Positions 8,234 through 44,166 of a DNA stretch of 49,443 nucleotides are shown here, in pieces. Source of the DNA: a bacterium (GTDB lineage Bacteria; Patescibacteriota; Minisyncoccia; Moranbacterales; UBA2206); NCBI GenBank assembly GCA_029567195.1, contig JAKQLJ010000017.1, positions 1 through 49,443 of the forward strand, given 5' to 3'. Within the stretch, counting starts at the first letter, position 1. Each line of letters opens with the position of its first letter. The position numbers and the translations under genes are program-made. The notes beneath the pieces were generated by a model. It worked only from the letters and a program-made list of their open reading frames with translations. It was not told the origin of the DNA and did not search any database.

Positions 8234-8243
8234 TATAATCTCG

Positions 8244-8316
8244 TGCGCTTAGCAGGAATTGAACCTGCGACCTTCTGGACCGCAACCAGACGCTCTATCC
8301 ACTGAGCTATAAGCGC
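8244..8316 (-). tRNA. tRNA-Arg (GCG)
   Basis: RC: GCGCTTATAGCTCAGTGGATAGAGCGTCTGGTTGCGGTCCAGAAGGTCGCAGGTTCAATTCCTGCTAAGCGC; acceptor GCGCTTA/TAAGCGC. Confidence 0.92.
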
Positions 8317-8467: not shown

Positions 8468-8548
8468 CCGCAACCAGACGCTCCCTGCCTGCATGCCTAA
8501 CGGCATGTAAACCGGCAGGCAGGTATCCACTGAGCTATAAGCGCTTTT
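8468..8548 (-). pseudogene. Truncated tRNA-Arg 5' half interrupted by a 40-bp palindrome
   Basis: ccgcaaccagacgctc + [8484-8523 cctgcctgc...gcaggcagg] + tatccactgagctataagcgctttt, identical to the intact tRNA outside the insert. Confidence 0.85.
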
Positions 8549-43128: not shown

Positions 43129-43261
43129 CTATGATCGGTTTTTGTATAAATTACTATTGAAGACTTGTGGAAAAACTCAATGCGTTATTTATGAAGCCAG
43201 TGAAAGTTGACATAGGACCAGTCAAGCGCTAAAATAAGGGATAGTTTTTATATATACATAT

Positions 43262-43347
43262 AGTGGGGTGGAGCAGTTCTGCCTAACGGCAGACAAGCTG
43301 TCTGACTCGCGTGGCTCACTTGCCTGCCGATAGGCAGGTAACCACGA
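43262..43347 (+). pseudogene. Truncated tRNA-fMet 5' part interrupted by two palindromes
   Basis: agtggggtggagcagt + [tctgcctaacggcaga...] + tcgcgtggctca + [cttgcctgccgataggcagg] + taaccacga versus the intact gene at 43590. Confidence 0.82.
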
Positions 43348-43361
43348 ATAAATAAAATATA

Positions 43362-43628
43362 ATGTATAAGATATATGTGTTGTTTTTTAATAAAAACGTT
43401 TATACCAGAATGACATCGGATTTAAGCAGAAGAACCAAAGAGCATCAGAGAGGTAAGGTAAGATCAACAAGAAACAAGGGGAAATTTGTTGCTAAAGTAA
43501 TAGAAGAGTGTGGAGACAGAAAAATAGCCAGGAAAAGAGAGAAATATTGGAAATCAGGTTGCGGGAAAGAAAAATTAAAAAAACTATATAGCGGGGTGGA
43601 GCAGTCTGGTAGCTCGCGTGGCTCATAA
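43362..43628 (+). CDS. GIY-YIG nuclease-family protein, C-terminus encoded by tRNA-fMet
   Basis: MYKIYVLFFNKNVYTRMTSDLSRRTKEHQRGK...KREKYWKSGCGKEKLKK; second GIY-YIG motif looks degenerate. Confidence 0.8.
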   Translation: MYKIYVLFFNKNVYTRMTSDLSRRTKEHQRGKVRSTRNKGKFVAKVIEECGDRKIARKREKYWKSGCGKEKLKKLYSGVEQSGSSRGS

Positions 43629-43663
43629 CCACGAGGTCCTGGGTTCAAATCCCAGCCCCGCAA
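43590..43663 (+). tRNA. tRNA-fMet (CAU)
   Basis: GCGGGGTGGAGCAGTCTGGTAGCTCGCGTGGCTCATAACCACG..., initiator-like unpaired first position (A1.A72). Confidence 0.93.
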
Positions 43664-43725
43664 CATTTTTATAAAATATAAAACATACGGTGTGTTTTTG
43701 TTTCTTTTTGCGTTACATAAAAAAT

Positions 43726-43777
43726 GCCGGCGTAGCTCAGTTTCGGCCATAGGCCGACCAGCCTATGGCTGGGGTTA
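43726..43777 (+). pseudogene. Truncated tRNA-Met(CAU) 5' fragment interrupted by a 30-bp palindrome
   Basis: gccggcgtagctcagtt + [tcggccataggccgaccagcctatggctgg] + ggtta; intact copy begins at 43792. Confidence 0.82.
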
Positions 43778-43791
43778 TAAATTTGTATAAT

Positions 43792-43865
43792 GCCGGCGTA
43801 GCTCAGTTGGTTAGAGCGATGGACTCATAAGCCATAGGTCAGAGGTTCAAATCCTCTCGCCGGTA
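43792..43865 (+). tRNA. tRNA-Met or tRNA-Ile2 (CAU)
   Basis: Acceptor GCCGGCG/CGCCGGT, loop CTCATAA; elongator Met versus lysidine-Ile not resolved. Confidence 0.88.
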
Positions 43866-43960
43866 CTAAAATTTTTTAGGGGCGTAGCCCCGACGTAAAA
43901 ATTCTCTACCTGTCGGCAGACAGGCTTTGGAATTAACGGGACAAGCAGTTGATTGTGTAT

Positions 43961-44034
43961 GGACTGGTAGCTCAGTTGGTTAGAGCGTCCGCCTGTCACG
44001 CGGAAGGTCGCGAGTTCGAGTCTCGTCCAGTCCG
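43961..44034 (+). tRNA. tRNA-Asp (GUC)
   Basis: GGACTGG/CCAGTCC, loop CTGTCAC. Confidence 0.94.
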
Positions 44035-44088
44035 CGATTAACTGCTTGTCCCGTTAGTTGAGCAAAGTGAAACTTTACGGGGTCCATC

Positions 44089-44166
44089 TTAGCAGGTCGA
44101 GGGTTCCCTGCCCGCCAATGGCTTTGCCGAAGGCGAAGGCAGGCGGGGAGTCCCTTCGCTCCCGCA
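44089..44166 (+). pseudogene. tRNA 3' fragment interrupted in the T-loop by a ~41-bp palindrome
   Basis: gcaggtcgagggttc + [44107-44147] + gagtcccttcgctcccgca; no intact parent in window. Confidence 0.65.

Follow-up and report, generated by a model that had tools for sequence, protein, structure and literature searches.

Hairpin-split tRNA copies beside small GIY-YIG genes in Patescibacteria: a probable displacement scar upstream of tRNA-Met

A hairpin-split tRNA-Met copy and its neighbours

The window, by which we mean the whole 49,443-nt stretch of DNA analysed here, comes from a patescibacterial genome of 829 kb in 54 contigs (the host genome) and carries an operon of tRNA-fMet, tRNA-Met and tRNA-Asp. 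Upstream of the intact tRNA-Met(CAU) lies the 5' part of a second, displaced copy, split by a double hairpin and made up as follows:

43726-43742, + strand: 5' piece of the displaced tRNA-Met(CAU), positions 1-17, GCCGGCGTAGCTCAGTT, 17/17 identical to the intact tRNA
43743-43772, + strand: 30-nt double hairpin at the D-loop site between tRNA positions 17 and 18 (the 17/18 junction), with the same exact junction in G022 (two sites) and G041
43743-43757, + strand: first 15-nt hairpin of the insert, TCGGCCATAGGCCGA
43758-43772, + strand: second 15-nt hairpin of the insert, CCAGCCTATGGCTGG
43773-43777, + strand: GGTTA, equal in sequence to tRNA positions 18-22, the tRNA's own continuation after the insert
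43792-43866, + strand: intact tRNA-Met(CAU) (ARAGORN, Rfam)

The two copies share a strand and lie 66 bp apart from start to start, and a spacer of 14 nt separates the end of GGTTA (43777) from the intact gene. The sequence bears out every element that the sequence-only reading, which preceded this work, had given for the site: a tRNA-Met fragment, a palindrome and GGTTA, with 66 bp from this copy to the intact tRNA. The displaced copy aligns with a score of 34, exactly at the threshold of the genome scan described below, and the stretch folds with z = -2.18. No GIY-YIG ORF is present at this copy, where scar and tRNA leave only 14 nt between them, and a comparison of the flanks finds no 3' piece downstream of the intact gene. 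A group I intron at the site was considered and rejected: an Rfam scan of the window at gathering cut-offs returned tRNAs only. As a separate observation, the intact tRNA-Met (43792-43866) matches its counterpart in G008, a genome of another genus (locus L105), at every one of 78 nt, against 92% identity for the next tRNA-Asp, and transfer of the tRNA gene is possible.

The junction recurs elsewhere. Across 128 genomes, the 17/18 junction, tRNA sequence included, was found without mismatch at three more sites, which belong to two other genera; a further family has it with three mismatches. The exact sites lie in tRNA-Asp of G022 and tRNA-Val of G041, each with a GIY-YIG ORF, and in tRNA-Ile of G022, which has none; junctions of this type without an ORF also occur in tRNA-Asp of G029 and tRNA-Met of G041. 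The ORFs that follow the G022 Asp and G041 Val junctions are closest to the Asn/Ser genes of loci L062, L098 and L077, whose scars carry double hairpins too.

The sequence-only reading had named displaced copies of tRNA-Arg and tRNA-fMet beside that of tRNA-Met, and both are real. Together with the tRNA-Asp region, the remaining features are:

8243-8316, - strand: intact tRNA-Arg(GCG)
8468-8544, - strand: displaced tRNA-Arg(GCG) 5' piece, positions 1-37, with a 40-nt nested palindrome between positions 21 and 22
43207-43235, + strand: promoter-like TTGACA-17-TAAAAT immediately upstream of the fMet scar, an 11/12 match judged by consensus only
43262-43347, + strand: displaced tRNA-fMet copy, with hairpins in the D-loop (about 43278-43304) and the anticodon loop (43319-43338)
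43362-43628, + strand: GIY-YIG ORF of 88 aa between the fMet scar and the intact fMet gene, overlapping the tRNA
43590-43664, + strand: intact tRNA-fMet(CAU)
43879-43888, + strand: weak candidate for the 5' piece of an older tRNA-Asp (score 20, equal to the shuffle maximum)
43931-43953, + strand: left arm of the inverted repeat around the intact tRNA-Asp, 23 nt, 91% complementary to 44037-44059
43961-44035, + strand: intact tRNA-Asp(GTC)
44037-44059, + strand: right arm of the inverted repeat around tRNA-Asp
44094-44165, + strand: 3' piece of the same older tRNA-Asp (44094-44106 plus 44148-44165; score 38, shuffle maximum 24)
44107-44147, + strand: 41-nt palindromic insert in the T-loop of the older tRNA-Asp

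The fMet copy does hold the D-loop palindrome attributed to it, accompanied by the second hairpin in its anticodon loop. What had been overlooked are the GIY-YIG genes between scar and intact tRNA, at fMet the ORF at 43362-43628, and the tRNAs enclosed in inverted repeats. This ORF matches PF01541 with 31 bits (cut-off 22.6); Arg replaces the glycine of its YIG motif, and judged from this residue the protein is possibly inactive. The promoter-like consensus match suggests that the promoter position may have stayed with the old tRNA-fMet copy. The inverted repeat around tRNA-Asp scores 36, where the 99% level of a swap control is 24. Each of the three tRNAs of the operon, fMet, Met and Asp, appears to have gone through one or more displacements, the 5' end of the older tRNA-Asp being weak.

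Partial tRNA copies across genomes

We compared every tRNA locus found in four genomes with its own flanks, an unselected scan that used an aligner permitting long insertions, a score of at least 34 for a partial copy and, as control, tRNAs and flanks swapped. Draft assemblies, many from metagenomes, make up most of the genomes compared in this work, the window's own included. In the host genome, upstream partial copies accompany 5/27 tRNAs (swap control 1/156), an enrichment that extends beyond the three cases named earlier; its matches comprise six upstream, one of them a Lys/Arg cross-match to the neighbouring Arg scar, and one downstream. The 47 tRNAs of G019 gave seven upstream and five downstream copies (control 1/278), the 41 of G020 three and none (0/238), and the 41 of G003 none on either side (0/242). 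A GIY-YIG search returned nine matches in the host genome (one UvrC-like), eight in G019 and none in G003 or G020. The scars are thus common, as in G019 and the host, and not universal, since G003 has none; they can also arise without a detected GIY-YIG gene, because G020 has upstream copies at 3/41 tRNAs and no GIY-YIG match. Unscarred fMet-Met-Asp operons are found in G003, G005, G009 and G025. Nor are scars always 5' and upstream, as had been proposed: tRNA-Ile in three genomes is of a mirror type, in which the intact tRNA is followed by an ORF and then by a 3' piece starting at position 37, with the hairpin before the piece.

In a second class of scar, which has no ORF, an intact tRNA bounded by inverted repeats lies between the two parts of an older tRNA of its own isotype, in some cases with nesting. 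The window's tRNA-Asp belongs to it. Such tRNAs inside older tRNAs occur in G001, G013, G032 and G038, and relatives have, in their fMet-Met-Asp operon, an inverted-repeat-flanked intact tRNA-Met within an older split tRNA-Met, twice nested in G038. In G019, the tRNAs for Ile, Leu, Val and Ser have this design, and the repeat core CCCCGCAC, both strands counted, has 23 occurrences in the 15,031 nt that lie no more than 150 nt from a tRNA and a single one in the 51,028 nt farther away. The inverted repeat CACCCCNCACYAAAAT, searched as an exact pattern that proved too strict, gave two sites in 22 genomes. The tRNA-Met scar might itself have begun this way, with an inverted-repeat-bounded tRNA landing beside or in an old tRNA-Met and its repeats eroding since; the four genomes above and the adjoining tRNA-Asp offer precedents, but the intact tRNA-Met has no flanking inverted repeat above control and lacks the 3' piece downstream, and we regard this origin as quite unlikely.

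GIY-YIG genes and hairpin inserts

Short GIY-YIG loci, 96 in number, were collected from 20 of the 22 genomes searched, the window's own among them, after leaving out long-frame UvrC-like matches and seven short or cut-off ones. A same-strand tRNA (in one case a tmRNA) lies at most 160 nt downstream of 34/96, at most 60 nt in 28, and a same-strand tRNA or tmRNA lies at most 160 nt upstream of 17/96; on the opposite strand, neither was found within 160 nt of any of the 96. Among loci of Y1 transposases, taken as control, any tRNA was found in 1/30. Many GIY-YIG loci have, beyond the ORF, a partial copy of the neighbouring tRNA, often split by a hairpin and up to 100% identical, and the scars directly precede the ORF start. 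Upstream segments contain a strict hairpin at 19/34 tRNA-adjacent genes versus 10/49 and 14/79 in controls, an excess that is only supportive, as the sets differ in G+C (0.435 versus 0.383 and 0.370).

The proteins are mostly about 80-90 aa long, with the domain spanning most of that length. Residues Y, Y, R, H and E, which we take to be the catalytic ones, are kept in 87/87. Homing endonucleases usually have a separate DNA-binding part; these proteins are a bare catalytic domain. Two of four matched NCBIfam models, under the curated cut-offs, and the nearest solved structure is the UPF0213 protein 1zg2 (E 0.0007).

In a tree of the 87 proteins, the Trp, Ile, fMet, Asn and Ser genes each group across genera, as read off by eye. 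Isotype labels require 32 changes versus 38.4 when shuffled, with 0/200 shuffles as low; the Gln-adjacent genes are scattered (6 changes, 5.9 shuffled), and 48/87 proteins carry no tRNA label. A genome scan with the Trp subfamily found relatives in many Patescibacteria groups, and the 80 loci retained include three whose proteins are the same as Trp-clade members of the earlier set. A tRNA-Trp lies within 160 nt of 10/16 new genes nearest the Trp clade versus 1/61 others, the classes in this out-of-sample test having been assigned by eye from a printed table. A search for viral contigs carrying the Trp subfamily gave four weak relatives only.

Among loci without a tRNA, generic direct repeats of any kind were seen at 3/49 (50 loci listed, one too short), and an Rfam search of 40 gave eight matches in six loci: four tRNAs and one each of 16S rRNA, 23S rRNA, tmRNA and the sRNA DUF3800-V, the last at 1119-1217 of L088. 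Several single loci deserve mention in their own right. At L092, in G001, a 23S rRNA match encloses a GIY-YIG gene, and at L034, L082, L089 and L109, in three genomes, the genes adjoin a tmRNA, before or after it; the L034 gene, from the host genome, has two in-frame TAG stops. By eye, a 16-bp inverted repeat directly surrounds the ORF before tRNA-Ala at L059 in G021. At L098 (1251-1784), beside an Asn-subfamily gene, the anticodon loop of tRNA-Asn is split by a long insert that, again by eye, resembles a group I intron.

The hairpins have a life outside the tRNAs as well. The core GCCNNAGGCNNNNNNGCCTNNGGC of the double hairpin occurs in 18/31 genomes of the family (reversed-pattern control 0), and 17 of 42 inspected hairpin sites lie in open frames of at least 300 codons; the family thus occupies unrelated, dispersed sites, also in genes, as RPE-like palindromic mini-elements do. 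Rickettsia palindromic elements and REP/BIME are likewise brief hairpin-forming repeats scattered over genes and spacers, and REP sequences of the RAYT kind are mobilised by a linked Y1 transposase. Unlike the Rickettsia and REP/BIME repeats, the hairpins here are also found at recurring loop positions of displaced tRNAs beside GIY-YIG genes. Within displaced tRNAs, 34/43 inserts fall in a loop or at a loop edge where 19.0 were expected, the events not all being independent; the count comprises 42 of 48 breakpoints plus that of tRNA-Met, the six dropped being inserts outside 10-45 nt or cross-isotype alignments. The breakpoint sets are enriched for GIY-YIG neighbours and contain related sites, the four-genome scan alone being unselected, and the outlines of several scars were traced by eye on printed sequences. 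The preference proposed for the D-loop holds for tRNA loops in general, sites in the anticodon loop and T-loop being common. Separately, at L199 (around 1000, G041), a double hairpin lies in the apparent T-loop of a tmRNA 3' end.

These counts bear on a different account, in which dispersed palindromic mini-elements enter redundant tRNA duplicates left by ordinary tandem duplication, the GIY-YIG genes being unrelated. The genome-wide repeat, its presence in long open frames and three Y1 transposase matches in the host genome are in keeping with it. Against it, loops are favoured, the same site recurs across different tRNAs and genera, upstream copies outnumber downstream ones, and the hairpin type matches the GIY-YIG subfamily in most cases seen (a double hairpin is also found beside a gene of another clade, at L104, Glu). 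We consider this account unlikely, and the idea that palindrome insertion drove the duplication is unsupported.

Phages and integrative elements at tRNA attachment sites restore the tRNA and leave a displaced piece, and a partial tRNA duplicate adjoining an intact tRNA has that appearance. Here, however, the breaks fall in several different loops (D, anticodon and T), the scars are mostly 5', the recurring gene is GIY-YIG, no integrase was noticed at the junctions inspected, and the 14 nt between scar and tRNA-Met leave no room for an element with an integrase; an attachment-site scar is hardly credible.

Displacement of single-copy tRNA genes

The reading that we favour, with a probability of roughly 60%, is that a homing-like GIY-YIG event pushed aside a single-copy tRNA gene and left the tRNA-Met fragment as its scar, the ORF having since been lost. 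The copy is read as an ORF-lost scar mainly because a GIY-YIG ORF follows the exact junction at two other sites, and break and repair at a tRNA gene fits because inserts lie in loops, the replacement is of the same isotype and relatives are unscarred. The GIY-YIG genes stand beside their presumed tRNA target, and unoccupied alleles exist in relatives. The proposed course of events is:

(i) A small homing-type GIY-YIG endonuclease would break the resident tRNA gene, present in one copy, within one of its loops.

(ii) Repair would install a cassette, presumably moved by recombination, whose far end brings an entire tRNA of that isotype.

(iii) The old 5' part would remain on the promoter side, with a hairpin closing the break, and would then decay; the hairpin may mark the cut and shield the old copy.

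(iv) The tRNA-Met locus would formerly have held a GIY-YIG ORF, later lost.

Several observations weigh against displacement by such an enzyme. The intact tRNA retains the presumed target, leaving donor immunity unexplained; the proteins, at about 80-90 aa, are without the usual homing DNA-binding part; 17/18 junctions without an ORF exist elsewhere, as do the G020 copies; and the Gln genes do not cluster, many proteins are unlabelled and the double hairpin appears at L104.

The scarred copy could instead be a working leader, its structured 5' part controlling how the endonuclease is expressed or how the downstream tRNA is processed. Scars sit directly before ORF starts, the tRNA-Met stretch folds with the z value given above, and hairpins regulate the T4 homing endonucleases segB and mobE (accessible part of PMC2988022); the insert site, insert length and remaining tRNA span are nevertheless widely variable among scars, and the tRNA-Met copy has no ORF to regulate, which makes this very unlikely.

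Returning to displacement, the closest known system is SegB, a free-standing GIY-YIG homing endonuclease of T4/T6 phages which, in the accessible part of PMC13096335, cuts inside tRNA genes and amplifies tRNA segments by recombination. Its cut motif, RAWTSGAAC (PMC13096335), may be read as the complement of a T-loop, and the same portion states, from earlier work, that donor alleles are poorly cut by free-standing GIY-YIG enzymes. Many of the GIY-YIG genes described here likewise stand beside tRNA genes, which their products would cut; unlike the phage system, as far as that portion describes it, they are chromosomal, would leave a hairpin-scarred dead tRNA, would replace a single-copy host tRNA and encode bare-domain proteins. 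CPR bacteria, the same bacterial group, have mobile inserts in other structural RNA genes, namely rRNA insertion sequences with homing endonucleases, among which those of the GIY-YIG kind match neither of the intron types (accessible part of PMC11270868); here the target is tRNA, a word absent from the main text of that paper. Disrupted tRNA genes in the accessible part of PMC4390854 are introns and split tRNAs, mostly archaeal. In the accessible portions of the open-licence literature on GIY-YIG and homing endonucleases of Patescibacteria and the candidate phyla radiation, tRNA displacement is not described.

A single mechanism for the three cases, as the sequence-only reading had suggested, gains from the enrichment and from one recurring architecture; its palindrome driver, its restriction to the D-loop and its restriction to 5', upstream copies fall away. 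More broadly, and as a tentative proposal to which we give somewhat less than even odds, selfish elements of Patescibacteria may break essential single-copy tRNAs, seal them with hairpins and replace them, using either a GIY-YIG gene or a bare inverted-repeat tRNA, and leave nests and second-hand tRNAs behind. If this is true, tiny mobile elements would time and again break and replace tRNA genes that are essential to a huge and mostly uncultured group, and selfish DNA would gain indispensability at once. It would account for the partial tRNA repeats, the tRNA-adjacent GIY-YIG genes and the odd hairpins of these genomes, and would invite direct tests of site choice by a bare GIY-YIG domain. 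Successive rounds would yield nests of a tRNA in a tRNA in a tRNA, and a large share of the tRNA set of these bacteria would be second-hand.
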